Below, piece by piece: positions 1 through 15,270 of a stretch of 15,294 nt of DNA (the first letter of the stretch is position 1; the number at the start of each line of letters is the position of its first letter). The stretch spans positions 1 through 15,294 of the forward strand of contig DASVDK010000349.1 of NCBI GenBank assembly GCA_036381125.1, in the 5' to 3' direction. This stretch comes from DASVDK01 sp036381125 [NCBI: Thermodesulfobacteriota bacterium] (GTDB lineage Bacteria > DASVDK01). The notes under the pieces are model-generated. The model did not search any database. It was not told the DNA's origin and worked only from the letters and a program-made list of their open reading frames with translations. The position numbers were made by a program, and so were the translations under genes.

Positions 1-1456
1 ACCCTTGGATCGTCGCGTGGCCGCGCAACGCCAGGATGCCGCCGCCGGGCCTGCCGATGTTGCCGAGCAGCAGCTGCACCAGCGTGGCGGTGCGGATGAG
101 CTGCACGCCGCTGGTGTGCTGCGTCCAGCCGACCGCGTAGCAGATCGCGCTGGTTTTGTCGGGGCCGCTGTTGTCCAGCAGCGTCTCGGCCACCTTGGTA
201 AACGTGTCCTTCGGCGTGCCGCAGACCCGCTCGACCAGCTCGGGGGTATAGCGCGCGTAGTGCCGCTTCATGACCTGGAACACCGTCTGCGGGTCCTGCA
301 TCGTGCGGTCCTGCTTGGGCGGCGGGCCGACCAGCTTGGCGACCTGGGCCGCGAAGCCCTGCGCCTGGCCGCCCTGCGACGTGGGCTGGGTGCTGGGCTG
401 GGCTTGCCCGGCGGCGGCCTCGCTCTGGTAGGCCCAGGTCTTGGTGTCGTACTTCTTGGTATCTGCGCTGAAGCCGCTGAACAGCCCGTCGAGGTCGTCG
501 GGCCCTTTGTAGTCGGGCGAGATCAGTGTGGCCGCGTTGGTGTAGTTGAGCACATACTCCTTGAAGAACGGCTCCTCGTTCCAGCGGCGGCTGTTGAGCA
601 CGTAGTTGATCAGGCCGCCGAGGAAGGCGATGTCCGAGCCGGCGCGGATCGGCGCGTAGAGGTGTGCCATCGCGCTCGTCCGCGTGAATCGCGGGTCGAC
701 GTGGATGATCTTCGCGCCGCGCCGCTTCGCCTCCATGACCCAGCGGAAGGCCACCGGGTGGCACTCCGCCATGTTGGAGCCCTCGACCACGATGCAGTCC
801 GAGGCCGCGAGGCTGCCCGGATACGTCGTCGCCGCGCCACGACCAAGCCGCACCCCCAGACCGGGGACGCTCGAGCTGTGTCAGATCCGGGCCTGGTTCT
901 CGATGGCGACGACGCCGAGGCCCCGCAGGAGCTTCTGCTGGATGTGGTTCCACTCGTTGTCGATCGTGGCGCCGCCGAGCGAGAACATCGCGAGCGTCTG
1001 CATCAGCGGCCGCCCGTCGGCGGTCTTCTCCTGGAACGTCTCGTCACGGGTCTTCTTGACCAGCTCGGCGACGCGGTCCATGGCCTGCTCGAGCGGCCAG
1101 ACCTCCCAGGCGGTCGCGCCCGGGGCGCGGTGGAGGACCTGGGTCGCGCGGTTGGGGTTCACGTGGAGCTGGAAGGTCGCCGCGCCCTTGGGGCAGAGCG
1201 TGCCGCGGTTGACCGGGCTGTCGGGGTTTCCCTCGATGTTCACGATCCGGCCGTCCTTCACGTGGACGAGGGTGCCGCAGCCGACCGCGCAGTAGGGACA
1301 GACGCTCGGGTACACCTTCGCGTCCTTGATGCGCAGCTCCTGCGCGCGCGCCACGACGGGCGCGAGGTCCGCGCCGAGGCCTGCGAGCCCACCGAGCGCC
1401 GTGCCGGCGGCCGTGCCGACGGAGAGTCTGAGAAAGCCGCGACGGGACAGTTCCAT
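1..1456 (-). CDS. fdnG: Formate dehydrogenase alpha subunit (FDH-N/O type), selenocysteine-containing, 3' part outside window
   Basis: Catalytic subunit of a membrane-associated, periplasm-facing formate dehydrogenase, oxidising formate to CO2 and passing electrons to Fe-S and cytochrome b partners (family knowledge). Start ATG 1454-1456 is preceded by GGAG at 1465-1468. Residues 4-9 (SRRGFL) form a twin-arginine Tat signal, followed by a hydrophobic stretch and a likely cleavage after ARA (about residue 38). The [4Fe-4S] ligands are C53, C56, C60 and C88. Codon 192 (881-883) is an in-frame UGA in the context ENQARI-UGA-H. This matches the E. coli FdnG selenocysteine and its following His, and the frame stays open with clear FdnG similarity to the window edge (GRGA, AECHPVAFRW, DPRFTRT, YAPIRAGSDIAFL, CGTPKD, GWTQHTSG, LRGHATIQG). 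485 of about 1000 residues are visible. A Gln/Ala/Pro-rich insert lies near residues 343-375. It could equally be named fdoG or fdhA. Taking UGA as a stop would wrongly give a 191-aa fragment. Confidence 0.95.
850..883 (-). promoter_or_regulatory. SECIS element: UGA(Sec) codon plus downstream hairpin
   Basis: UGA (883-881) is followed, 10 nt later, by a hairpin at 870-850 on the minus strand. The stem is GCGUCCCC/GGGGGUGC (8 pairs, two of them G-U) and the loop is GGUCU. From memory, the E. coli fdhF SECIS also has GGUCU starting 18 nt after the UGA, and that spacing is the same here. A U occurs at the position of the E. coli bulged U17. This should recruit SelB for selenocysteine insertion. 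The sequence is visible; the function is inferred from the family. Confidence 0.85.
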
Positions 1457-1504
1457 GGATGGGTCTCCGGGAGGGAGGACGAGCCTCGAACCAGCCCATC
1501 TGCG

Positions 1505-1521
1505 TGCAGAAAGGCTGCCAG
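1505..1521 (-). promoter_or_regulatory. Candidate sigma-54 (-24/-12) promoter for formate dehydrogenase
   Basis: Read on the minus strand, this is CTGGCAGCCTTTCTGCA, against the consensus YTGGCACGNNNNTTGCW. The GG and GC doublets are exactly 12 bp apart, as required for sigma-54. The predicted start (about 1494) gives a leader of roughly 38 nt that contains the GGAG ribosome site. Formate dehydrogenase genes are known sigma-54 targets in enteric bacteria (fdhF/FhlA). The third part of the -24 box and the first T of the -12 box deviate from consensus. Confidence 0.5.
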
Positions 1522-1557
1522 CCCCGTGGCAGGCGCGACACGTGCACGCGGTCGGGC

Positions 1558-1767
1558 ATGGGCCACCCGCCAGAGGACCCCCGCCGGCACCCCGTGCGCG
1601 AGCCCGACCCGACCCCGGGGCGGCCGCCGCCGGGCCGCGACGCGCCGCCCATCGAACCCCCGCAACCGACCGACGAGCCGCCGATCGAGGAGCCACCGGG
1701 TCGGGGGCGCGGCGAGGGGACGCCCGTCGGCGATCCGCCGGGACCCGGCCGCCCGGAACGCGCGTAG
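1558..1767 (+). CDS. Possible small proline-rich hypothetical protein (69 aa)
   Basis: ATG 1558 to TAG 1765-1767 encodes 69 residues starting MGHPPEDP. It is dominated by repeated short acidic and proline units (PPIEPP, PTDEPPIEEPP, VGDPPG). No signal peptide, membrane segment or cysteine is present, so it would be an intrinsically disordered soluble peptide. Short proteins of this PP-I/V-x-E/D-PP style are annotated as hypothetical in many proteobacteria, which is the main reason for listing it. Against it: no convincing Shine-Dalgarno before the ATG, and GC-rich DNA readily makes chance Pro/Arg/Gly ORFs. The same frame is open upstream to ATG 1459, but that extension would run through the fdnG promoter. 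No function can be assigned. Confidence 0.35.
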   Translation: MGHPPEDPRRHPVREPDPTPGRPPPGRDAPPIEPPQPTDEPPIEEPPGRGRGEGTPVGDPPGPGRPERA

Positions 1768-1931
1768 GCGGCGGGCGCTCGGCGCCTGACGGTTCGGCCC
1801 GCGCGTGCGGCGCCCCGTCACGCGCGAGCGGTACGAGGCGGACGGGTACGTCCGGGGGCCCGTGACCTGGTGTCGTTCGGGACGCGGCTCGCCGGCCGGG
1901 CAAGGGCGGAGCGGGGGCGCCGCGGCGAAGG

Positions 1932-1940
1932 TGGTACACT
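1932..1940 (+). promoter_or_regulatory. Candidate extended -10 promoter for the thioesterase-rnr-ribF-aroE operon
   Basis: TGGTACACT has the TGn extension followed by TACACT (4 of 6 matches to TATAAT). There is no recognisable -35 box, as is usual for extended -10 promoters. Transcription would start near 1947, leaving a leader of about 47 nt before the GTG start at 1994. Confidence 0.4.
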
Positions 1941-1982
1941 AGCCAACCGCCGCGCTGGTGCCGGCTCGCCATCCTGACCCTC

Positions 1983-1987
1983 GGAGG
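1983..1987 (+). promoter_or_regulatory. Ribosome binding site that decides the thioesterase start
   Basis: GGAGG sits 6 nt before GTG 1994. The alternative in-frame GTG at 1958 has no such site and would add a 12-residue tail (PARHPDPRRNL-like) with no family support. Confidence 0.75.
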
Positions 1988-1993
1988 AACCTC

Positions 1994-2392
1994 GTGGCCC
2001 TCGAAGCCGCCGGCAGCTGCTTCGTCTGCGGCGCCGCCAACCCCGGAGGGCTGCGTCTCGCCTTCGAGGTCGACCGGGACGCCCGCACGCTGCGAACGAC
2101 CTGCCGTCCGCCCGAGGTGTACCAGAGCTGGGAGGGGATCGTCCACGGCGGCCTCGTGGCCACGCTGCTCGACGAGGCGATGGGCAAGCTCGCCCAGGAG
2201 CTGGGCCGTCCGGCGCTCACCGCCGCGCTCGACGTCCGCTTCCGCCGCCCGGCGCGGGTGGGGGACACGATCGACGTGGAGGCCGCCATCGACGCCATGG
2301 ACCGACGACTCATCACGGCGAGGGCCGTGGCGTACGGCCCGGGCCGGACGGTGCTCGCCGAGGCGACCGCCAAGCTGATGCCTGCCCGATGA
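1994..2392 (+). CDS. PaaI/4HBT-type hotdog-fold thioesterase
   Basis: A 132-residue single-domain hotdog protein predicted to hydrolyse an acyl-CoA thioester; the substrate cannot be read from sequence. The N terminus carries the CxxC-type motif CFVCGAANPGGL (residues 9-20), typical of one PaaI-like subgroup. The central helix has the family signature HGGLVATLLDEAMG (H51, G52, G53, with D60/E61 as catalytic candidates). The second half alternates strands (VRFRRPARVGDTIDVEA, ITARAVAYGPGRTVLAEATAK) as expected for the fold. GTG 1994 is chosen because GGAGG lies 6 nt upstream and the protein then starts directly before the conserved motif. The stop overlaps the rnr start in an ATGA, so the two are translationally coupled. 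Family assignment is firm; biological role is unknown. Confidence 0.88.
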   Translation: MALEAAGSCFVCGAANPGGLRLAFEVDRDARTLRTTCRPPEVYQSWEGIVHGGLVATLLDEAMGKLAQELGRPALTAALDVRFRRPARVGDTIDVEAAIDAMDRRLITARAVAYGPGRTVLAEATAKLMPAR

Positions 2393-4692
2393 TCACCCGG
2401 GACGCCCTCCTCGCCTTCATGCGGGACGCCGCCTACCGGCCGATGCTCCTCGACGAGCTCGGCCGGGGCCTCGGGGTGCCGGTCGAGGACCTGCCCGCGC
2501 TCGAGCGGCTCGTACGCGAGCTGGTGGAGGAGGGGGCGGTCGTCCGCACCCGCACCGGACGCTTCGGCCTCCCCGAGCGGATGAACCTCGTGGTCGGGCG
2601 CGTCGTGGTCCACCCCGACGGCTACGGGTTCCTCGTGCCCGACCGCCGGCCCGATCGGGCCGACGGCGGCGACTTCTTCCTCGCGCCCCGCAGCATCCGC
2701 GAGGTCATGGACGGCGACCGCGTGGTGGCCCGCGTCGAGCGGGAGCGGCGCGACGGCGGACGCGAGGCGCGGGTGATCCGCGTCCTCGAGCGGGCGCGCA
2801 CGCGGATCGTCGGGCGCTACGAGGCCTCGCGCGGCGTCGGCTACGTCGTGCCCCACGAGAAGCGGCTCGTCCACGAGGTCGTCATCCCGCCCGACCAGGT
2901 GGCCGGCGCGGTCTCGGGCGACCTCGTGGTCGCCGAGCTGACGAGCTATCCGTCCGACCGGGGCGGTCCCGAGGGGCGCATCGTCGAGGTGATCGGCCGG
3001 CGCGAGGACCCGGACGCCGAGGCCGAGCTGATCATTCGGAAGCACGAGCTGCCGCACCGATTCGGCGCGGCCGCGCTCGCGGAGGCCGATCGGGCGGCGC
3101 GCGAACGCGCCCCGTCGGAGCCGGACATCGCCGCCTCGGGCCGCGTCGACCTCCGGGACCGGACACTGGTGACGATCGACGGCGAGACGGCGAGGGACTT
3201 CGACGACGCGGTCGGCATCGAGCCGCTCGAGGGGGGCCGGACGCGGCTCTACGTGGCCATCGCCGACGTGTCGCACTACGTCGACCCCGGCGGGGCCCTC
3301 GACCGCGAGGCGTACGCGCGGGGCACGAGCGTCTACTTCCCGGACCGCGCGATCCCGATGCTGCCCGAGGTGCTCTCGAACGGCATCTGCTCGCTGAACC
3401 CGCGCGTCGACCGCTACGCGCTCACCGCCGAGCTGACCTTCGACGCCGCGGCGCGGCCGCTCGAGGCGCGCATTTACCCGAGCGTCATCAGGAGCCGGGC
3501 GCGCCTCACGTACACGCTCGTGCGGCGGATCGTGGGGGATCGGGACGAGGCGGCGCGCGCGGCGCACGCCCCCCTCGTCGCCGACCTCGAGCGGATGGCC
3601 GACCTCGCCGCCCGGCTGCGCAGCCGCCGCCTTCAGCGCGGCAGCATCGACTTCGACCTGCCGGAGCCGCAGGTCGTCCTCGACCTCGAGGGGGGGATCG
3701 AGGCGATCGTCCGCTCCGAGCGGAACCTGGCCCACCAGCTCATCGAGGAGTTCATGCTGGCGGCCAACGAGGCGGTGGCGCGCCACCTCCAGGGGCTCGA
3801 CGTGCCGACCCTCTACCGGGTCCACGAGGAGCCGGCGCGCGACAAGCTCGACGCGTTCCGGGAGTTCCTTCACAACCTCGGGTACACGCTCGGCGGCACC
3901 GCCGGCGGGCCGGTGCATCCCAAGATGTTCCAGAAGGTGGTCGACGCCGCGCGCGGCCGGCCGGAGGAGCGGCTCGTCAACACCGTGATGCTCCGGACGA
4001 TGACGCAGGCACACTACTCGACCGAGAACATCGGCCACTTCGGCCTCGCCTCGCCCGCCTACACCCACTTCACCTCGCCCATCCGACGCTACCCCGACCT
4101 CGTGGTCCACAGGATCCTGCACGAGGTGGGGGCGCACGGTCGCCTGCGGGCCGATCGTCGCGCCGCCCTCGAGCGCGAGCTCCCCGAGACGGCGCGCCAC
4201 TGCTCCGAGCGCGAGCGCAAGGCGATGGAGGCCGAGCGCGAGGTGGTCGCCCTCAAGAAGTGCCAGTTCATGGCGACCCGGGTGGGCGACGAGTTCGACG
4301 GCGTCATCGCCGGCGTGACGGTGTTCGGCTTCTTCGTGGAGCTCTGCGACGTGTTCGTCGAGGGGCTGGTCCACATGTCCTCGATCGGTGACGATTACTA
4401 CACCTACGTCGAGAAGGCGCACGCGCTCGTGGGGCGGCACACCCGGCGCACGTTCCGCATCGGCGACCCCGTTCGGGTGCGGGTCGAGCGGGTCGACCTC
4501 GACAGCCGCCACATCGACTTCTCGATCGTGGAGGCCGAGGGCGCGGCCGGCCGTCGGCCCGCGAGGACCGGGAAGACGGCCAGGACGAAGGCGAAGCGCA
4601 AGGCGAAGCCGCAGCCGGCGGCGCCGGCGACCCGGGCGAAGACGAGCCTCCGGCGCACCGCGACGCAGCGCCGCGGCAAGAAGGGGAAGTAG
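2389..4692 (+). CDS. rnr: Ribonuclease R, 3'-5' exoribonuclease
   Basis: Processive hydrolytic 3'-5' exoribonuclease of the RNB family, acting on structured RNA, mRNA decay and rRNA quality control. The 767 residues follow RNase R architecture: an N-terminal winged-helix region (about 1-65), cold-shock/OB domains (about 66-215), an RNB catalytic domain (about 250-600), an S1 domain (about 633-718, GDEFDGVIAGVTVFGFFVEL) and a Lys/Arg-rich tail (about 720-767). The four metal-binding aspartates of the family appear as D264 (VTID) and D270, D272, D273 (RDFDDA), with the same spacing as D201/D207/D209/D210 of RNase II. Other RNB marks are CSLNPRVDRYALT, RVHEEP and HFTSPIRRYPDLVVHR. The N-terminal winged helix and basic tail favour RNase R over RNase II. 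ATG 2389 overlaps the upstream stop; the ribF reading frame begins right after the stop. Confidence 0.97.
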   Translation: MITRDALLAFMRDAAYRPMLLDELGRGLGVPVEDLPALERLVRELVEEGAVVRTRTGRFGLPERMNLVVGRVVVHPDGYGFLVPDRRPDRADGGDFFLAPRSIREVMDGDRVVARVERERRDGGREARVIRVLERARTRIVGRYEASRGVGYVVPHEKRLVHEVVIPPDQVAGAVSGDLVVAELTSYPSDRGGPEGRIVEVIGRREDPDAEAELIIRKHELPHRFGAAALAEADRAARERAPSEPDIAASGRVDLRDRTLVTIDGETARDFDDAVGIEPLEGGRTRLYVAIADVSHYVDPGGALDREAYARGTSVYFPDRAIPMLPEVLSNGICSLNPRVDRYALTAELTFDAAARPLEARIYPSVIRSRARLTYTLVRRIVGDRDEAARAAHAPLVADLERMADLAARLRSRRLQRGSIDFDLPEPQVVLDLEGGIEAIVRSERNLAHQLIEEFMLAANEAVARHLQGLDVPTLYRVHEEPARDKLDAFREFLHNLGYTLGGTAGGPVHPKMFQKVVDAARGRPEERLVNTVMLRTMTQAHYSTENIGHFGLASPAYTHFTSPIRRYPDLVVHRILHEVGAHGRLRADRRAALERELPETARHCSERERKAMEAEREVVALKKCQFMATRVGDEFDGVIAGVTVFGFFVELCDVFVEGLVHMSSIGDDYYTYVEKAHALVGRHTRRTFRIGDPVRVRVERVDLDSRHIDFSIVEAEGAAGRRPARTGKTARTKAKRKAKPQPAAPATRAKTSLRRTATQRRGKKGK
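4683..4689 (+). promoter_or_regulatory. Purine-rich ribosome site before a possible ATC start of ribF
   Basis: GGGGAAG lies in the last codons of rnr, 5 nt before ATC 4695 (8 nt from the G run). No comparable site precedes the first conventional start, GTG 4755. It therefore favours initiation near 4695. Confidence 0.45.
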
Positions 4693-4694
4693 CC

Positions 4695-5660
4695 ATCGCC
4701 CTCGAGATCATCCGCGACGGCCGGCGCCTGCCGCGGCCCTTCCACCGCGCCGCCGTGGCGCTCGGCAACTTCGACGGGGTCCACCTCGGGCACCAGGCGC
4801 TCTTCGACCGGCTCAAGGCGCTCGGCGGTCGGCTCGGGGGCGACACGGTCGTCTACACCTTCGACCCGCACCCGGTCGCCTTCTTCTTCCCCGACCGGCC
4901 GCCGTTCCTGCTCACGACGCTCGAGCAGCGGCTCGAGCTGATCGAGCGATTCGGCATCCCGACCGCCGTGGTGGCCACGTTCGACGCCTCCTACGCCGCG
5001 CAGTCCCCCGAGGCGTTCGTCGAGGAGGTGCTGGTCGGCGCCCTGTCGGCACGGGCGGTCGTCGTCGGGTACGACTTCACGTTCGGCAAGGGACGCGCCG
5101 GGACGCCGGAGGTGCTCGTGAGCCTCGGGCGCCGACACGGCTTCGAGGTCGACGTGATCGCGCCGGTGTCGGTGGGCGGCGAGCCGGTCTCCTCGAGCCG
5201 CATCCGCCGGCTCGTGGCCGCCGGACGGGTGGAGGAGGCTGCCGCCCTGCTCGGCCGACCCTACGCCATCCGGGGGGCCGTGGTGCCCGGCCACCGGCGC
5301 GGCGGCGCCGCGCTCGGCTTTCCCACCGCCAACGTCGCCGCCGAGAACCCGGTGCTGCCGCCCAACGGCGTGTACGCGGCCCTCGTGCGCGGCCTCGGCC
5401 CCGACGCGCTCCCGGCGGGGGCGTGGGCCGCGGCCGTGAACGTCGGCGTCGCGCCGACCTTCGGCGGTGCGGGTGCGCGCACGGTGGAGGCACACCTTCT
5501 CGACTTCGACGGCGATCTCTACGGCCGGCGGCTCGAGGTGGCCTTCGTCGCCCGCCTGCGCGACGAGCGGCGCTTCCCGGACCTCGACGCGCTCCGCGCC
5601 CAGATCGCCGCCGACGTCGCCGCCGTGCGGGCGGCGCTCGCCGGGCGGCCCGCCCGATGA
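4695..5660 (+). CDS. ribF: Bifunctional riboflavin kinase / FAD synthetase
   Basis: Converts riboflavin to FMN and FMN to FAD in the cytoplasm. The N-terminal adenylyltransferase domain shows GNFDGVHLGH (residues 24-33 from ATC 4695), an HxGH nucleotidyltransferase signature, and SSSRIR (166-171). The C-terminal kinase domain shows GFPTAN (208-213), containing the PTAN motif, then GVYAALV and NVGVAPTFG. Start: the first ATG/GTG/TTG in frame is GTG 4755 (301 aa), but it begins inside the first strand (VALGNFDG) and has no ribosome site. The sequence before it, ALEIIRDGRRLPRPFHRAA, matches the usual RibF N terminus (E. coli MKLIRGIHNL...). ATC 4695 gives 321 aa, close to the usual 310, lies 2 nt after the rnr stop and follows GGGGAAG. 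I therefore use ATC, or a miscalled ATG, as the likely start. Its stop overlaps the aroE ATG. Function is sure; the start is not. Confidence 0.93.
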   Translation: MALEIIRDGRRLPRPFHRAAVALGNFDGVHLGHQALFDRLKALGGRLGGDTVVYTFDPHPVAFFFPDRPPFLLTTLEQRLELIERFGIPTAVVATFDASYAAQSPEAFVEEVLVGALSARAVVVGYDFTFGKGRAGTPEVLVSLGRRHGFEVDVIAPVSVGGEPVSSSRIRRLVAAGRVEEAAALLGRPYAIRGAVVPGHRRGGAALGFPTANVAAENPVLPPNGVYAALVRGLGPDALPAGAWAAAVNVGVAPTFGGAGARTVEAHLLDFDGDLYGRRLEVAFVARLRDERRFPDLDALRAQIAADVAAVRAALAGRPAR

Positions 5661-6568
5661 CGATCAGCGCCGCGACCCGGCTCGTGGGGCTCCTCGGCTG
5701 GCCGGTGACCCAGTCGAAGTCGCCGGTCTTCCAGAACGCCGCCTTCGCCGCCGCCGGCCTCGACTGGCGCTACGTGCCGCTCGGGGCGCCGCCCGGACAG
5801 CTCCCGGCGGCCGTGCGGGGCCTCGCCGCCATGGGCTTCGTCGGGGCCAACGTGACGATCCCCCACAAGGAGGCGGTGCTCGGTCTCCTCGACGCGGTCG
5901 ACGACGAGGCGGCGCTGGCCGGCTCGGCCAACACGCTCGTCGTCGAGGGGACCCGCGAGCGCCCGCGCCTGGTCGGCTACACGACCGACGGGCCCGGCTT
6001 CCTCGCCAGCCTGCGCGAGGAGACCGGCGCCGACGCGGCGGGCATGACGGTCCTCCTCCTCGGGGCGGGCGGCGCGGCCCGAAGCCTCGCCGCGGCCCTC
6101 GTGCGGGCCGGTGCGGATCGGGTGATCGTGGCCAACCGGACGGTCGAGCGGGCGCAGGCGCTCGTGGCGGCGCTGACGGGCCGGGCCGGCCGGACCCGCC
6201 TTGCGGCGCTGCCGCTCGACGCCGCGGCGCTCGCGCCCCATCTCGGGGCCGTGGACCTCGTCGTGCAGGCGACCTCGGTCGGCATGACGGGGGGCGGCGC
6301 GCCGGCGGCGATGCCGGCCGTCGACATGGACCGCCTGCGCCCCTCGACCATTGCCGCCGACCTCGTCTACGCCCCCCCGCGAACGCCCTTCCTCGCCGCG
6401 GCCGAGGCGCGGGGCCTGCCGCGGTTCGGCGGCGCCGGCATGCTGCTCCATCAGGGGGCGCTCGCGTTCGAGCGCTGGACGGGTCGCACGGCCCCTCTCG
6501 AGGTCATGCGCCGCGCCCTCGCCGGCGCCCTCGGCACGCCGGTCGGGCCGCGGGAGCGCGAGGCCTGA
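5657..6568 (+). CDS. aroE: Shikimate dehydrogenase
   Basis: NADPH-dependent reduction of 3-dehydroshikimate to shikimate in the aromatic amino acid (chorismate) pathway. 303 residues, slightly longer than the usual 270-290. The shikimate-binding serines are in QSKSP (S20, S22); the catalytic lysine is in VTIPHK (K71) with its partner aspartate in TTDGPGF (D111); SANTLV precedes the latter. The Rossmann loop is GAGGAARS (136-143), and NRTVERA (160-166) has the basic pattern for NADP preference. QATSVGM, DLVYAPPRTPFL and GMLLHQGALAFERWTG complete the family signature. The ATG overlaps the ribF stop (ATGA), so it is the fourth gene of the operon. In-frame codons upstream belong to another frame of ribF and are not part of the protein. 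Confidence 0.97.
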   Translation: MTISAATRLVGLLGWPVTQSKSPVFQNAAFAAAGLDWRYVPLGAPPGQLPAAVRGLAAMGFVGANVTIPHKEAVLGLLDAVDDEAALAGSANTLVVEGTRERPRLVGYTTDGPGFLASLREETGADAAGMTVLLLGAGGAARSLAAALVRAGADRVIVANRTVERAQALVAALTGRAGRTRLAALPLDAAALAPHLGAVDLVVQATSVGMTGGGAPAAMPAVDMDRLRPSTIAADLVYAPPRTPFLAAAEARGLPRFGGAGMLLHQGALAFERWTGRTAPLEVMRRALAGALGTPVGPREREA

Positions 6569-6576
6569 CCTCCCCG

Positions 6577-6596
6577 ATCGGAACGATCGTTCCGAT
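6577..6596. repeat. 20-bp perfect palindrome downstream of aroE
   Basis: ATCGGAACGATCGTTCCGAT is its own reverse complement. It lies 9 bp after the aroE stop and about 140 bp before the pilB promoter -35 box. As RNA it can form an 8-bp stem with a GATC loop. As DNA it is a two-fold symmetric site of the kind bound by dimeric regulators such as TetR-like proteins. No T-run follows. Confidence 0.7.
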
Positions 6597-6733
6597 TCGC
6601 AACTTCCCGACTCCGCAGGAAAAAGCGACGCGCAGCGCGGCAACGGCGCGCCCGCGTGCGCCGCGCGGGTGACGCGGTGCGCGCCGGCCGCCGGGGAAGG
6701 TCCCCCGGGTGCCGCGGAGCGACAACTTTGCGC

Positions 6734-6762
6734 TTGACAGCCCCCGGCCCCTCGCGTAGGTT
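6734..6762 (+). promoter_or_regulatory. Candidate sigma-70-type promoter for pilB (pilBTCSR)
   Basis: A perfect -35 TTGACA (6734-6739) is followed after exactly 17 bp by TAGGTT (6757-6762), a weak -10 (3 of 6). Transcription would start near 6769, giving a leader of about 160 nt. The following genes are close together (gaps of 5 to 65 bp), so this may serve the whole pilB-pilR unit. Confidence 0.55.
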
Positions 6763-6915
6763 CCCGCCGCTTCGCGGGGCCGCTGCGCCCCGGCACGCGG
6801 GCCGGTTGCGGCCCGATCGCGGCGGGAACGAGCCGCGAGCCGGGGCGGCCGCGGCGTTCGCCGCCGCGGAGGCCGGGTCGGTCCCGGCCGGAGCGAATGG
6901 CGACCGCGAGGCGGT
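6761..6915 (+). promoter_or_regulatory. Hairpin-rich leader of pilB, possibly a structured RNA
   Basis: Perfect inverted arms TTCCCGCCGC (6761-6770) and GCGGCGGGAA (6819-6828) enclose two similar hairpins, each with a 5-bp stem and 6-nt loop: GGGGC/GCCCC (6776-6791) and GGGCC/GGCCC (6799-6814). Together they make a potential three-way junction. Then come CCGCGGCG-ttcgc-CGCCGCGG (6849-6869), GGCCGGG-tcggt-CCCGGCC (6871-6889) and ACCGC-gag-GCGGT (6903-6915), just before the GGAGG ribosome site (6922-6926). It does not resemble a c-di-GMP riboswitch that I recognise. If transcription starts near 6769 the outer stem could not form in the RNA. Confidence 0.4.
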
Positions 6916-6930
6916 GTTGGCGGAGGCGGG

Positions 6931-8631
<1,701 letters not shown>

Positions 8632-8696
8632 CGAGCCGAAGCGGACGTCGCGCGGCGGCTCGACAGGGACGAACACCGCGACAGGATGGGGGACCC

Positions 8697-9851
8697 GTGG
8701 CCAACCTGCACGAACTGCTCAAGACGATGATCGAGAAGGGGGCGTCGGACCTCCACATCACGACCGGCACGGCGCCGATGCTCCGCATCCACGGGCACCT
8801 GCAGCCGCTGCCCGGGGCGCCCCTCAGCGCGGCCGAGACGAAGCAGCTCTGCTACTCGATCCTCACCGACGCCCAGAAGCACAAGTTCGAAGAGGAGAAC
8901 GAGCTCGACCTGTCGTTCGGCGTGAAGGGGCTCTCGCGCTTTCGCGCGAACATCTACGTCCAGAAGGGCGCGGTGGCCGCCGCCATCCGGACGATCCCCT
9001 TCAAGATCATGACCTTCCAGGAGCTGGGCCTGCCCCAGGCGGTCGCCGACCTCGCCAAGCGGCCGCGCGGCCTGGTGCTCGTGACCGGGCCGACCGGCTC
9101 GGGCAAGTCGACGACGCTCGCCGCCATCATCGACTCGATCAACCAGACCCGTCACGACCACATCGTGACGATCGAGGACCCGATCGAGTACCTGCACCCG
9201 CACAAGAACTGCCTCGTGAACCAGCGCGAGGTGCACGCGGACACGAAGAGCTTCAAGACGGCGCTCAAGTACATCCTCCGGCAGGACCCGGACGTGGTCC
9301 TGGTCGGCGAGCTGCGCGACCTCGAGACGATCGAGGCGGCGCTGACCGTGGCCGAGACCGGCCACCTGGTCTTCGCCACGCTCCACACGAACGGCGCCGT
9401 CCAGACGATCAACCGTATCGTCGACGTCTTCCCGCCCCACCAGCAGCAGCAGGTCCGGGCGCAGCTCTCCCTCTCGCTCGAGGGGGTGCTCTCGCAGGTG
9501 CTGATCCCCAAGCTGGGCGGCGGCGGGCGGGTGCTCGCGCTCGAGATCATGATTCCGAACTCGGCCATCCGCGCCCTCATCCGCGACGACAAGGTCCACC
9601 AGATCTACTCGCAGATGCAGGTCGGCCAGGACAAGTACGGGATGCAGACGATGAACCAGTCGCTGCTCTACCTGTACCAGAAGCGGCTCATCAGCCTCGA
9701 GGACGCGCTCGGCAAGAGCTCCAACCCGGACGAGCTCAAGCAGATGCTGGGCGGCGCGGCGCCGGCGGGCGCGGGCGGGCTGCGGCCGGGGATGCCGGGA
9801 CAGCCGGGCATGCCGCGGCCGGCGGGCATGCCGCGGCCGGCGGGCCGGTAG
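8697..9851 (+). CDS. pilT: Type IV pilus retraction ATPase
   Basis: Hexameric ATPase that drives pilus depolymerisation and so twitching motility. 384 residues. An N-terminal PAS-like domain begins ANLHELLKTMIEKGASDLHITTG. Walker A is GPTGSGKST (K137), the Asp box is TIEDPIEYLH, Walker B is DPDVVLVGELRD (E205), and the His box is GHLVFATLHTN. The C-terminal AIRALIRD (290-297) corresponds to the AIRNLIRE motif required for retraction in PilT. There is no tetracysteine zinc site, which separates it from PilB. The start is GTG 8697 with a G-rich GGATGGGGG stretch upstream; the nearby ATG 8686 is out of frame. The last ~30 residues form a Gly/Pro/Met/Ala tail with a tandem GMPRPA repeat, longer than in typical PilT. 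Confidence 0.96.
   Translation: MANLHELLKTMIEKGASDLHITTGTAPMLRIHGHLQPLPGAPLSAAETKQLCYSILTDAQKHKFEEENELDLSFGVKGLSRFRANIYVQKGAVAAAIRTIPFKIMTFQELGLPQAVADLAKRPRGLVLVTGPTGSGKSTTLAAIIDSINQTRHDHIVTIEDPIEYLHPHKNCLVNQREVHADTKSFKTALKYILRQDPDVVLVGELRDLETIEAALTVAETGHLVFATLHTNGAVQTINRIVDVFPPHQQQQVRAQLSLSLEGVLSQVLIPKLGGGGRVLALEIMIPNSAIRALIRDDKVHQIYSQMQVGQDKYGMQTMNQSLLYLYQKRLISLEDALGKSSNPDELKQMLGGAAPAGAGGLRPGMPGQPGMPRPAGMPRPAGR
9806..9841 (+). repeat. 18-bp tandem duplication in the 3' end of pilT
   Basis: GGGCATGCCGCGGCCGGC occurs twice head to tail (9806-9823 and 9824-9841), encoding GMPRPA twice. A degenerate earlier relative (PGMPGQ) precedes it, consistent with slippage expanding the tail. Confidence 0.85.
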
Positions 9852-9882
9852 GCTCGGGGCCCGGAGGGCCGGAGGGCGGACG

Positions 9883-11094
9883 ATGCCGATCTTCACGTAC
9901 GAAGGCAGGACGGCGCAGGGGCAGGTCACCCGCGGCGAAATGGAGGGGGTCTCGGAGGCGGCCATCCGGATCCTCCTGCGCCGGCAGGGGATCACGCCGA
10001 CGAAGGTCTCCCAGAAGGGCCGGGGCCTCAACATGGAGATCCGGATCGGCGGCAACTCGGTCGCCGAGAAGGACCTCGTCGTCTTCACCCGGCAGTTCGC
10101 CACCATGATCGACGCGGGCCTGCCGCTCGTGCAGTGTCTCGACATCCTGTCGCAGCAGCAGACGAACCCGTTCTTCAGGAAGACGATCACGAGGATCAAG
10201 GAAGACGTCGAGGGCGGCTCCACGTTCAACGAGGCCCTGGCCAAGCACCCGAAGGTCTTCGACGAGCTGTACGTCAACCTCGTGGCCGCGGGCGAGGTGG
10301 GCGGCATCCTCGACACGATCCTGAACCGCCTCGCCGCCTACATCGAGAAGTCGATGAAGCTCAAGAAGCGGATCAAGGGGGCGATGGTCTACCCGGGCGT
10401 CATCGTCACGGTTGCCGTCGGCGTCGTCGCGATCCTGCTCGTCTTCGTCATCCCGATCTTCGCCAAGATGTTCGCCGACTTCGGCGGCGAGCTGCCGGCG
10501 CCGACCAAGATCGTCATCGGGCTGTCGGAGTGGCTGAAGAGATGGATCGTCCCGATCCTCATCGGCGCCGGCGTCTTCGCCTTCCTCTTCAAGAAGTGGT
10601 ACGGGACGCAGAGCGGCCGGCGGATCGTCGACCGGAACATCCTGCGCCTCCCGGTCGTCGGCGACCTCATCCGGAAGATCGCCGTGGCCCGGTTCACGCG
10701 GACGCTCGGCACGATGGTCTCCTCGGGTGTGCCGATCCTCGACGGCCTGCAGATCACGGCCAGGACGTCCGGCAACAAGACGGTCGAGGCGGCGATCATG
10801 GCGACCCGCGTCTCGATCAGCGAGGGCAAGACCATCGCCGAGCCGCTCCAGAAGAGCGGGGTCTTCCCCTCCATGGTCTGCCAGATGATCGCGGTCGGCG
10901 AGTCGACCGGCGCGCTCGACAACATGCTCAACAAGATCGCCGACTTCTACGACGACGAGGTCGACAGCGCCGTCGGCGCCCTCACCGCCCTCATGGAGCC
11001 GGCGCTCATGGTGTTCCTGGGGGTCGTCATCGGCGGCCTGGTCATCGCCATGTACCTGCCGATCTTCAAGATCGCGGGTGCGGTGGGCGCCTAG
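9883..11094 (+). CDS. pilC: Type IV pilus inner-membrane platform protein
   Basis: Polytopic GspF-family protein that couples PilB and PilT to pilin insertion. 403 residues with two T2SSF repeats. The first starts about 68 (FTRQFATMIDAGLPL) and the second about 271 (FTRTLGTMVSSGVPI), each followed by the GE-type signature (AAGEVGG at 135-141; AVGESTGALDNML at 337-349). Three membrane segments are visible: about 168-194, 221-238 and 371-394. The N-terminal MPIFTYEGRTAQGQV stretch is typical of the family. ATG 9883 has GGAGGG (9871-9876) 6 nt upstream. It lies 31 bp after pilT and 5 bp before pilS, consistent with one transcript. Confidence 0.97.
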   Translation: MPIFTYEGRTAQGQVTRGEMEGVSEAAIRILLRRQGITPTKVSQKGRGLNMEIRIGGNSVAEKDLVVFTRQFATMIDAGLPLVQCLDILSQQQTNPFFRKTITRIKEDVEGGSTFNEALAKHPKVFDELYVNLVAAGEVGGILDTILNRLAAYIEKSMKLKKRIKGAMVYPGVIVTVAVGVVAILLVFVIPIFAKMFADFGGELPAPTKIVIGLSEWLKRWIVPILIGAGVFAFLFKKWYGTQSGRRIVDRNILRLPVVGDLIRKIAVARFTRTLGTMVSSGVPILDGLQITARTSGNKTVEAAIMATRVSISEGKTIAEPLQKSGVFPSMVCQMIAVGESTGALDNMLNKIADFYDDEVDSAVGALTALMEPALMVFLGVVIGGLVIAMYLPIFKIAGAVGA

Positions 11095-11099
11095 CCGCC

Positions 11100-12791
11100 A
11101 TGGAGCCCGTCCTGCGAGAGCGCCTCAAGTGGTCGCTCCTCCTCAGGGTCGTCGTCGTGACCGTCATGCTCGGGGCGGCCGCCGGCCTGCAGGCCGGGGT
11201 GCGCGAGCCGCTGGTCCCGCCGCCGCTCACGGTGCTGTACCTGCTGATCGGGCTCACGTACGCCCTCACCGTGGTCTACGCGCTGGCGCTGCCGCGGCTC
11301 CGCCCGGCGCCGCTCCACCTCTTCGCGTACGGCCAGGTGCTCCACGACCTCGGCTTCGCGAGCGTCACGGTCGCCTTCACGGGCGGTCTCGAGAGCCCGT
11401 TCGTCGTCCTCTACACCCTCGGGATCGTGAACGCGGGGCTCCTGCTCTACCGCCGCGGCACGGTGCTGGCGGTCTCGCTCGCCGCGCTGTCGCTCGTGCT
11501 GGTGACGCAGGTCCCCCCGGCGTGGCTGCCCGGCCAGGGAGAGGGGCCGCTCGACTGGCTTGCCGCCTCGAGCGCGCGGGCCGGCAGCGACCGCACCGAC
11601 CTCGTCCTGGTCCTCTCGCTGGCCGGCTTCGTCGCCATCGGCGCCCTCGCGTCGTACCTGGCCGACCAGCTCCGGCGCGCCTCCGAGCGGCTCGAGGCCA
11701 AGTCGGTCGACCTCGCCGAGCTGGAGGCGATGAACCGCCTCATCGTCCAGAGCATCCAGAGCGGGCTCCTCACCGTGTCGCCCGACGGCCGGGTCACGTC
11801 CTTCAACCGGGCGGCGCACGGCATCACCGGCCGGGCGCCGGCCGACGTGATCGGCCGGCCGGTCCGCGACCTCTTCCCGGGCATCGACCTCGACCGGCCG
11901 GTGCGGGGCGAGCGCTGGGAGGTGGAGTACACGCGCCCCTCGGGCGAGACGCTGACGCTCGGCTTCTCGGTGTCGGCGCTGCGCGACGAGCCGGGCAACC
12001 CGGCCGAGGCGCCGCGGAGCCTGGGGCGGATCGTCCTCTTCCAGGACCTGACGCCGTACAAGGCGCTCGAGGAGGAGGTCCGGCGCGTCGACCGCCTGGC
12101 GGCGGTGGGCAAGCTCGCCGCCGGCATGGCGCACGAGATCAGGAACCCGCTCGCCTCGATGAGCGGCTCGGTCCAGCTCCTCAGGGAGGAGCTGGTGACG
12201 GCGAGCCGCGAGCACCGCCGGCTCATGGACATCATCCTCCGGGAGACCGACCGGCTCAACGAGCTGATCACCGACTTCCTGCTCTTCGCCCGCCCGGGGA
12301 CCCCGAGGCGGGAGCCGGTGGACCTGGCCGCCGTGATCGAGGAGACGGCCGCGCTGGTCGGCACGGGGCGGGAGCGCGCGGTGGAGCTCGACGTCCGCCT
12401 CGAGCGACCGCTGCCGATGGTCGGCGACCCGCGCGAGCTGCGCCAGGTCTTCTGGAACCTCGTCGTGAACGCCGAGCAGGCGATGCCGCGAGGGGGCCGC
12501 ATCGAGGTCGCCGGCCGTCTCGTCGCCGGCGGATCGATCGAGGTGACGGTCAAGGACGGCGGCAGCGGGATCGCCGCCAGGGACCTCGAGCGGATCTTCG
12601 ACCCGTTCTTCACCACCAAGCCGAACGGGACGGGTCTCGGCCTGGCGATCGTCCACCGGATCGTGCAGTCCCACGGCGGCACGATCGCCGTGGCGAGCCG
12701 GCCGGACGCCGGCACCACGTTCACGCTCAGGCTGCCCGCCGCCGAGGCGCCGGCCCCGGCGGGCGTCGCCCTCAACGACCGAGCCGCGTAG
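11100..12791 (+). CDS. pilS: Sensor histidine kinase of the PilS/PilR two-component system
   Basis: Membrane kinase that should phosphorylate PilR to control pilin transcription. 563 residues. The N-terminal region holds about six hydrophobic segments (roughly 12-32, 42-64, 75-94, 99-117, 120-138, 166-187), as in Pseudomonas PilS. A cytoplasmic PAS domain spans about 212-325 (VQSIQSGLLTVSPDG...NRAAHGITG). HisKA contains GMAHEIRNPLAS with phospho-acceptor H345. The HATPase domain has N box NLVVN (453-457), G1 DGGSG (486-490), FDPFFTTK and G2 GTGLGL (510-515). ATG 11100 is 5 nt after the pilC stop, with only a weak ribosome site, which suggests translational coupling. The frame is open upstream through pilC, but that is an overprint. 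The NtrB-like kinase core alone would not name it; its position before pilR and pilA does. Confidence 0.93.
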   Translation: MEPVLRERLKWSLLLRVVVVTVMLGAAAGLQAGVREPLVPPPLTVLYLLIGLTYALTVVYALALPRLRPAPLHLFAYGQVLHDLGFASVTVAFTGGLESPFVVLYTLGIVNAGLLLYRRGTVLAVSLAALSLVLVTQVPPAWLPGQGEGPLDWLAASSARAGSDRTDLVLVLSLAGFVAIGALASYLADQLRRASERLEAKSVDLAELEAMNRLIVQSIQSGLLTVSPDGRVTSFNRAAHGITGRAPADVIGRPVRDLFPGIDLDRPVRGERWEVEYTRPSGETLTLGFSVSALRDEPGNPAEAPRSLGRIVLFQDLTPYKALEEEVRRVDRLAAVGKLAAGMAHEIRNPLASMSGSVQLLREELVTASREHRRLMDIILRETDRLNELITDFLLFARPGTPRREPVDLAAVIEETAALVGTGRERAVELDVRLERPLPMVGDPRELRQVFWNLVVNAEQAMPRGGRIEVAGRLVAGGSIEVTVKDGGSGIAARDLERIFDPFFTTKPNGTGLGLAIVHRIVQSHGGTIAVASRPDAGTTFTLRLPAAEAPAPAGVALNDRAA

Positions 12792-12803
12792 GAGCCCTGT
12801 GGG

Positions 12804-14207
<1,404 letters not shown>

Positions 14208-14244
14208 ACCCGCCGGGGTCGGGTCGCACCCGTCTTCCCGGTGA

Positions 14245-14292
14245 ACCGGCTCCGACTCGATGCCGGACGTCCGGCCACCGGGCGGAGCCGGT
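14245..14292. repeat. Nested inverted repeats downstream of pilR
   Basis: Perfect 10-bp arms ACCGGCTCCG (14245-14254) and CGGAGCCGGT (14283-14292) enclose a perfect 14-bp palindrome GCCGGACGTCCGGC (14262-14275). In RNA this would be a strong hairpin with an inner hairpin. It may end or stabilise the pilBTCSR transcript, but there is no following T-run. Confidence 0.65.
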
Positions 14293-14324
14293 GGTGGGCC
14301 GAGGGCCGCGAAGCCCGAGGCGGT

Positions 14325-14382
14325 GCCGCCCACGGACCGCACTGTCGGCGCTCGGGCCTCCGGCCCGGGGCCGCTGGCGCGG
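14325..14382. repeat. 58-bp direct repeat, copy 1, upstream of pilA
   Basis: Identical over 58 bp to 14413-14470 (period 88 bp, 30-bp spacer). The unit starts GCCGCCCACGGACCGCACTG and contains CTGTC (14342-14346) and a hairpin CGGGCC-tcc-GGCCCG (14353-14367). Confidence 0.9.
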
Positions 14383-14412
14383 AGTGCCGGGGATCGGCGC
14401 CTGTCCTCGCGG

Positions 14413-14470
14413 GCCGCCCACGGACCGCACTGTCGGCGCTCGGGCCTCCGGCCCGGGGCCGCTGGCGCGG
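14413..14470. repeat. 58-bp direct repeat, copy 2, upstream of pilA
   Basis: Second exact copy, with CTGTC at 14430-14434 and the hairpin at 14441-14455. The 30-bp spacer between copies carries a third CTGTC (14401-14405). The P. aeruginosa PilR recognition element is reported as (C/G)TGTC, so the array could be an upstream activator site. A dispersed REP-like repeat is the main alternative. Confidence 0.9.
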
Positions 14471-14554
14471 CCCGCATTCACGCTACTTGCCTGCGGTGAC
14501 GGGGAGCGGCACCTCAGACGCGTCCCGGGGCACCACGTGCCGTGGAGTGACGCA

Positions 14555-14609
14555 GCCTGCCGGGGGTGGGACGCAAGGCGCGGCGCCGGGACGGCAGGCG
14601 GGGCGCCCC
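14555..14609. repeat. Inverted repeat and adjacent palindrome upstream of the pilA promoter
   Basis: GCCTGCCG (14555-14562) and CGGCAGGC (14592-14599) are perfect 8-bp arms, followed directly by the palindrome GGGGCGCCCC (14600-14609). They lie about 100-150 bp upstream of the pilA start of transcription. In such GC-rich DNA part of this may be chance. Confidence 0.4.
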
Positions 14610-14680
14610 AAGTGGCCGAAAGCGCATGAGCCCGGGGGGGCGGCCCCGGAGTCACGGCGGCCTGGCGAGGAAGGGGTCGC

Positions 14681-14697
14681 CTGGCACGCCCTCTGCA
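14681..14697 (+). promoter_or_regulatory. Sigma-54 (-24/-12) promoter of pilA
   Basis: CTGGCACGCCCTCTGCA differs from the consensus YTGGCACGNNNNTTGCW at one position only (C for the first T of the -12 box). The GG (14683-14684) and GC (14695-14696) doublets have the required 12-bp register. Transcription would start near 14708, giving a leader of about 70 nt. Sigma-54 control of pilA by PilR is well established in other bacteria. Confidence 0.82.
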
Positions 14698-14778
14698 CGG
14701 TTGCCGCTGTGCAACCCACTGCCGCAAGCCGGGTGGTCCGGTCGACGCGGCGGGATGATCAGCAAGGAGTCGTGATCA

Positions 14779-15270
14779 ATGCGGACCACGCGCAAGAGCA
14801 CGAAGGGCTTCACGCTCATCGAGCTCATGATCGTCGTGGCGATCATCGGTATTCTCGCCGCGATCGCCATCCCGAACTTCCTCCGGTTCCAGGCCAAGGC
14901 TCGGCAGTCGGAGGCCAAGACCTCGCTCGCCGCCATCTTCACGGCGCAGACGGCGTTCTTCGCCGAGAACAACAACATGGGCGGCAGCTTCAACGCCATC
15001 GGCTGGTCGCCGTCGGGTGAGCCGAAGTACGACTACGCGATGTGGGACGACACCGAGGGGACCAAGACCGGGACCTTCATCGCGGTCGCCCAGGGCATCG
15101 ACGCCGCGTGCGGCGCGGCGATGGACACCTCGGTCCAGGTGGTCGAGTTCACCGCCTGCGCGGCCGGCAACGTCGACAACGACCCCGACACCGACCGCTG
15201 GATGGTGAACGACGACAAGAACCTCACCCAGGATCAGACTGACTGCCCGGGCTGCTTCAACGACGTGTAG
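14779..15270 (+). CDS. pilA: Type IV major pilin precursor
   Basis: Structural subunit of the pilus. 163 residues: a short basic leader MRTTRKSTKG, prepilin peptidase (PilD) cleavage after G10, and a mature protein of 153 residues starting FTLIELMIVV, with N-methyl-Phe at F11 and the essential Glu5 at E15. The hydrophobic N-terminal helix runs to about residue 34, then FQAKARQSEAKTSL and AQTAFFAENN, like Myxococcus/Bdellovibrio-type pilins. The C-terminal globular part is acidic and Asn/Asp-rich, with four cysteines (C111, C127, C156, C159) able to form two disulfides. AAGGAG (14764-14769) lies 9 nt before ATG. It is separated from pilR by about 570 bp with its own sigma-54 promoter, so it is transcribed apart from pilBTCSR. 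No prepilin peptidase gene is in the window. Confidence 0.97.
   Translation: MRTTRKSTKGFTLIELMIVVAIIGILAAIAIPNFLRFQAKARQSEAKTSLAAIFTAQTAFFAENNNMGGSFNAIGWSPSGEPKYDYAMWDDTEGTKTGTFIAVAQGIDAACGAAMDTSVQVVEFTACAAGNVDNDPDTDRWMVNDDKNLTQDQTDCPGCFNDV

Follow-up and report, generated by a model that had tools for sequence, protein, structure and literature searches.

A probable selenocysteine-containing formate dehydrogenase gene with an in-frame UGA codon and a bacterial SECIS hairpin shared with relatives across phyla

The 15,294-nucleotide stretch of DNA analysed here (the window; contig DASVDK010000349.1 of a Thermodesulfobacteriota bacterium) carries on its minus strand the 5' half of an fdnG/fdhA-like gene for an FDH-N type formate dehydrogenase alpha subunit (2..1456, 485 codons, cut by the window edge), and an in-frame UGA within it raises the question of whether this codon is decoded as selenocysteine, ends translation, reflects a sequence error or is a sense codon genome-wide. 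Translation from the ATG at 1456-1454 places the UGA (881..883, minus strand) at codon 192, directly followed by a histidine codon (CAC) and by a total of 293 further codons that run to the window edge without another stop. From sequence comparisons we consider it very probable that the gene encodes a selenocysteine-containing, probably Tat-exported catalytic subunit of the FDH-N type, with UGA 192 read as selenocysteine by means of a SECIS hairpin. In such a mechanism, the codon would specify the selenocysteine residue of a molybdenum or tungsten active site, the hairpin, 18 nt downstream, would bind SelB carrying selenocysteinyl-tRNA(Sec), and the ribosome would then insert selenocysteine rather than terminate. 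The evidence presented here concerns the frame, its homology, the conservation of the UGA, the conservation and covariation of the hairpin, and the sel genes of relatives.

To which family the product belongs is evident from profile and structure matches alike. The encoded half-protein contains Pfam domains PF04879 (Molybdop_Fe4S4, 74 bits) and PF00384 (Molybdopterin, 53.7 bits), both above gathering, and its best NCBIfam match is NF041513 (formate_DH_Act, 662.2 bits, full-length cut-off 1400), with TIGR01553 (FDH-N alpha) at 525.5 bits (cut-off 814.2 for the whole protein); both scores stay under their full-length cut-offs because only about half of the gene, the part encoding the N-terminal half, lies inside the window. 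A full-length relative that is 68% identical to the window half (locus L001) passes both, with 1012.2 versus 814.2 bits for TIGR01553 and 1432.3 versus 1400 for NF041513; downstream of it lie a 4Fe-4S and an NrfD-like subunit together with an open reading frame whose FdhE match is weak and sub-threshold. Among PDB entries the best matches are selenocysteine-containing formate dehydrogenase alpha chains (E down to 8.7e-131), to which the window protein, with the UGA read as cysteine, aligns at residues 2-347 and 379-485, and in the three alignments shown residue 192 stands opposite a residue printed C or X. The sequence-only reading, made from the letters of the window, had placed the codon at the FdnG selenocysteine position and had described FDH-N similarity continuing past the UGA and its histidine; the alignment to solved formate dehydrogenases, with residue 192 at their Sec/Cys position, bears out both.

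The window protein thus resembles the selenocysteine-containing FDH-N alpha chains (TIGR01553; PDB 1kqf, 6sdr and 9qm0) in family, selenocysteine position, Tat-like N-terminus and continuous alignment, but differs from them in a Q/P-rich insert at residues ~346-380 and in the residues that follow the selenocysteine, UHSS in the window versus HSP in the top PDB chains. The insert is a Q/P/A-rich low-complexity stretch (window positions ~317-421, minus strand) with a similar but longer counterpart in L001. The N-terminus (MELSRRGFLRLS...ARA; 1343..1456, minus strand) begins with what we take to be a twin-arginine-type motif, from which a putative export signal is deduced.

How such a gene is annotated appears to vary. 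Automatic annotation had been expected to break it in two, and a plain table-11 list of open reading frames does cut the frame into 881..2146 and 2..853, but a RefSeq record of E. coli presents fdhF as one CDS across its UGA; the split therefore depends on the pipeline. The gene is an ordinary textbook case in a known enzyme family, and one that is easily mis-annotated: the formate dehydrogenase alpha subunit is, according to an excerpt of PMC13188914, the selenoprotein family with the widest distribution in bacteria, and an excerpt of PMC5029168 counts it in 822 organisms. Recognition of the codon spares a catalytic selenoprotein annotation as two fragments or as a pseudogene, and a metabolism that uses selenium and formate is implied for the organism.

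Conservation of the UGA was assessed in the best 80 of 458 stretches encoding relatives, found by a scan of genome contigs. The codon aligned to 192 is TGA in 79 of these 80 and TGC in one, from Streptomyces nanshensis (L078); this is the outcome of the check for selenocysteine in homologs that the sequence-only reading had suggested. The titles of the 80 span many phyla, and similarity extends to both sides of the UGA. The top six (a Proteobacteria MAG, a Chloroflexales MAG, two Rokubacteria and two Thermomicrobiales) reach 65-70% identity over the best segment. A quick tree places the window in a starred set of 29 rows, the smallest such set to include it, with Thermomicrobiota, Rokubacteria, Chloroflexota and Pseudomonadota as its main members. 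UHxP, a selenocysteine-related motif that an excerpt of PMC13188914 gives with a representative formate dehydrogenase sequence and that we do not take as a definition, does not describe the window, which reads UHSS, and proline three residues past the Sec/Cys position occurs in 0 of 81 rows.

These comparisons bear directly on two other accounts of the codon. The existence of a TGC relative, albeit one in the 80, would suit an erroneous TGA, introduced by sequencing or assembly, in a Cys-type enzyme (TGC or TGT), but an error is hard to reconcile with a TGA common to 79 of the 80 and with a window in which all six SECIS pairs described below are possible, as against three of six in the cysteine relative; we regard it as very improbable. 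Extremely improbable, in our estimate, is a pseudogene with a true stop codon: the in-frame stop under table 11 is what it would predict, yet the stop sits exactly at the active-site selenocysteine position, is shared as TGA with relatives, lies beside a hairpin whose six pairs can form in the window, and is followed by strong similarity over 293 more codons with no further stop. The cysteine relative, L078 (position 1714), combines TGC at the selenocysteine codon with three of six SECIS pairs and a genome with no convincing selA, selB, selC or selD. Its GGGCT loop was considered as a sign of SECIS loss and dropped, the same loop being present in the TGA relatives L011 and L015.

Selenocysteine decoding would call for a SECIS element, and a candidate lies just downstream of the UGA. 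The apical hairpin (852..868, minus strand; alignment A1, columns 22-27 with 33-38) consists of a 6-bp helix, two of whose six pairs are G-U in the window, around a GGUCU loop (858..862, minus strand) that starts 18 nt after the UGA; the loop reads GGTCT in 71 of 81 rows, which comprise the window, its 79 TGA relatives and the cysteine relative, and its distance from the UGA is the same 18 nt in E. coli fdhF, in agreement with the sequence-only reading. Judged by its sequence, the hairpin is a bacterial SECIS, an assignment made firm by comparison across relatives. It resembles the Rfam models of such elements (RF01988, RF01989) in its place right after the UGA, its G-U loop core and the 18-nt spacing of E. 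coli fdhF, but differs in a score under gathering and in that 64 of 80 rows are predicted to fold with an uninterrupted helix where E. coli fdhF is predicted to have a bulged U.

Taken by itself, the window hairpin is unremarkable. At minimum energy it folds out of register, into a stem of 4 bp and a loop of 6 nt; positions 840-883 are not unusually stable (z -0.99, 37 of 200 dinucleotide shuffles being as stable), and three other cuts of the hairpin region give shuffle z values of -0.47, 0.21 and -0.15. When the codons were recoded synonymously 5000 times, all six pairs survived in 20% of the recodings and the pairs together with the GGUCU loop in 1.2%. RF01989 (SECIS_3) matches 828..886 (minus strand) at 30.9 bits (E 2.9e-5 in a 301-base search), below the gathering score of 63, and the lower stem of the matched region is poorly conserved in relatives; no Rfam family reaches its gathering score in the whole window, and the Geomonas relative L045 has no Rfam match up to E 1. 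For comparison, the known SECIS of E. coli fdhF scores 35.8 bits with SECIS_3, which it fails, and 87.1 with SECIS_2 (RF01988), which it passes. The check suggested earlier, folding the region and comparing it with a SECIS covariance model, gave a match under the model's gathering score and a stability that does not rise above that of shuffles.

The dimensions of the hairpin agree with the bSECIS model given in an excerpt of PMC13188914, which allows an apical loop of 3-9 nt and an upper stem of 4-16 bp, places a G within the first two loop positions and the loop 16-37 nt from the UGA, and sets a minimum free energy at or below -7.5 kcal/mol. The window offers a 5-nt loop with six pairs, or a 6-nt loop with four pairs in the shifted fold, and has the early G (GGUCU) and the 18-nt spacing; its apical hairpin, at -7.6 kcal/mol, is barely past the energy limit, and the larger region reaches -20.2. 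Among the window and its 79 TGA relatives, 75 of 80 rows pass the energy limit on the apical part and 80 of 80 on 44 nt.

The stronger case for the hairpin comes from an ungapped alignment of the window with the 79 TGA relatives (from the best 80 of 458), the cysteine relative being left out. RNAalifold recovers from it the 6-bp apical helix only (columns 22-27 with 33-38, around GGUCU), and in the 78 distinct rows 99.6% of 468 cells are paired. Double-changed cells number 25 versus 7.7 +/- 2.0 in shuffles, none of 500 shuffles reaching 25, and the covariation score exceeds that of all 500, whereas six slid versions of the helix have fewer paired cells, fewer double-changed cells and a lower score. 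Double changes fall at just one of the six pairs, a pair count reached by 500 of 500 shuffles; the number of pair types is reached by 23 of 500, and two of the six pairs are invariant and hence uninformative on covariation. The covarying pair joins a valine and a glycine codon and is synonymous, with GTC+GGG in 49 of 81 rows, GTG+GGC in 26, GTT+GGG in three and GTT+GGA in one; the unpaired combination GTC+GGC occurs in two, the cysteine relative L078 and the TGA relative L016, which keep three and four of the six pairs, the window keeping all six. On supported branches there are only three independent valine-codon changes, all agreeing with the glycine codon, and the sign test (median p 0.25) is unable to reach significance with three changes. 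The lower stem of SECIS_3 is weak in relatives, with 61.1% of cells paired and a higher covariation score when its partners are slid by +3 (0.123 versus 0.104). The near-complete pairing of the apical helix and its synonymous covariation thus substantiate the identification of the hairpin as a bacterial SECIS proposed in the sequence-only reading.

The same alignment touches on the bulged U, which an excerpt of PMC8704476 lists among the features conserved in prokaryotic SECIS elements and on which the excerpted text of PMC7590224 is silent. In predicted folds of the window and its 79 TGA relatives, the apical helix of 64 of 80 rows runs without a bulge or other interruption for at least six pairs, and E. 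coli fdhF is predicted to fold with the bulged U. The window and 13 near relatives (L001, L003, L004, L005, L006, L007, L009, L012, L013, L014, L017, L021 and L029) are predicted to fold in the shifted register, where the stem has 4 bp, the loop has 6 nt and the U lies unpaired below the stem. One doubtful possibility is that most of this widespread branch of selenocysteine-containing formate dehydrogenases (Chloroflexota, Planctomycetota, Myxococcota, Geobacteraceae, Acidobacteriota, Actinomycetota and others) would have an uninterrupted SECIS helix, with a covarying pair at the place of the E. coli fdhF bulged U, and that SelB there might read GGUCU and dispense with the contact to the bulge described for E. 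coli; the absence of such a fold from the window and its 13 near relatives makes it less likely. In the window's sub-branch, with its weaker G-U pairs, the U may stay unpaired, and this sub-branch may thus be an intermediate form. Synonymous covariation across phyla in any case provides a comparative picture of the SECIS in this formate dehydrogenase branch, many members of which seem to be without the textbook bulged U.

Selenocysteine decoding would also call for the sel genes, and these were searched in the genomes behind 14 of the 80 loci (best 80 of 458), 13 with TGA and one with cysteine (L078). Control genomes also give weak matches (tRNA-Sec, SelB and SelD in 14 of 14 each, SelA in four of 14) and some above cut-off (tRNA-Sec in five, SelB in two, SelD in two and SelA in one of 14), so proteins were counted only above cut-off and tRNAs only with ARAGORN agreement. 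By this count selA, selB, selC and selD are all present in 10 of the 13 TGA genomes, and two or three of the four in each of the remaining three; gaps of this kind are expected because most of the genomes are draft or MAG by title. A tRNA-Sec match exceeds the Rfam cut-off in 13 of the 14 genomes, and at the best match ARAGORN calls a tRNA-Sec in 12 genomes but a tRNA-Ser in those of L005 and L078. SelB is above cut-off in 12 of 14 (absent for L009 and L078), SelA is found in 12 of 14 (partial for L006, no match for L078) and SelD is above cut-off in 11 of 14 (absent for L005, L009 and L078). The cysteine genome accordingly shows no SelA match, no SelB or SelD above cut-off, and at its tRNA-Sec match just a tRNA-Ser, where Rfam's best family is plain tRNA. 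Established knowledge of the family leads us to infer selABCD in the window's host, decoding of the codon as selenocysteine and the metal site of the enzyme; the sel genes that the sequence-only reading expected in the organism draw their support from the relatives. As a side observation, SelD has an in-frame TGA in nine of the 11 genomes with SelD above cut-off (G001, G002 and G004-G010), in which SelD is probably itself a selenoprotein.

The remainder of the window (1958-15270) holds genes for a thioesterase, RNase R, ribF, aroE (TIGR00507, 229.5 bits, over 200.2), pilB, pilT, pilC, pilS, pilR and pilA, and these speak to the third alternative, a genome-wide reassignment of UGA to sense as in codes 4 or 25. 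A lone in-frame UGA would by itself be compatible with such a code, but TGA is the terminal stop of three neighbours, the thioesterase, ribF and aroE, and the ten other named genes of the window are open under table 11 with no internal stop, which renders reassignment vanishingly improbable.

In the fetched flanks, which are often short, relatives do not share the gene's place beside RNase R and the pilus genes. Nine window proteins have no match at 1e-15 in those flanks, and a search of ten in-frame window proteins against the 80 loci at 1e-5 gave only weak matches at 25-37% identity, 8 rows for pilS and 6 for pilR, such as any sensor kinase or response regulator gives; the formate dehydrogenase control matched all 80 loci. 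A plasmid search returned seven records, with at most 4% of the window covered among the five matches listed, and a scan of positions 700-2000 found no promoter or terminator.

RNase R and PilB matches make the window's chromosome look deltaproteobacterial. RNase R has matches in 345 of 395 genomes of Geomesophilobacter's phylum (up to 55% identity among the matches listed); for the phylum to which L024 belongs the count is four of four genomes (best identities 42-49%), and for that of the Rokubacteria locus L003 it is 29 of 95 (at most 39%). PilB identity reaches 73-74% in Geobacteraceae and an Anaeromyxobacter. The formate dehydrogenase gene may have been acquired by lateral transfer. Among the best 80 of 458 relatives, the enzyme itself is closest to those of Rokubacteria, Chloroflexota and the like, unlike its deltaproteobacterial-looking neighbours.
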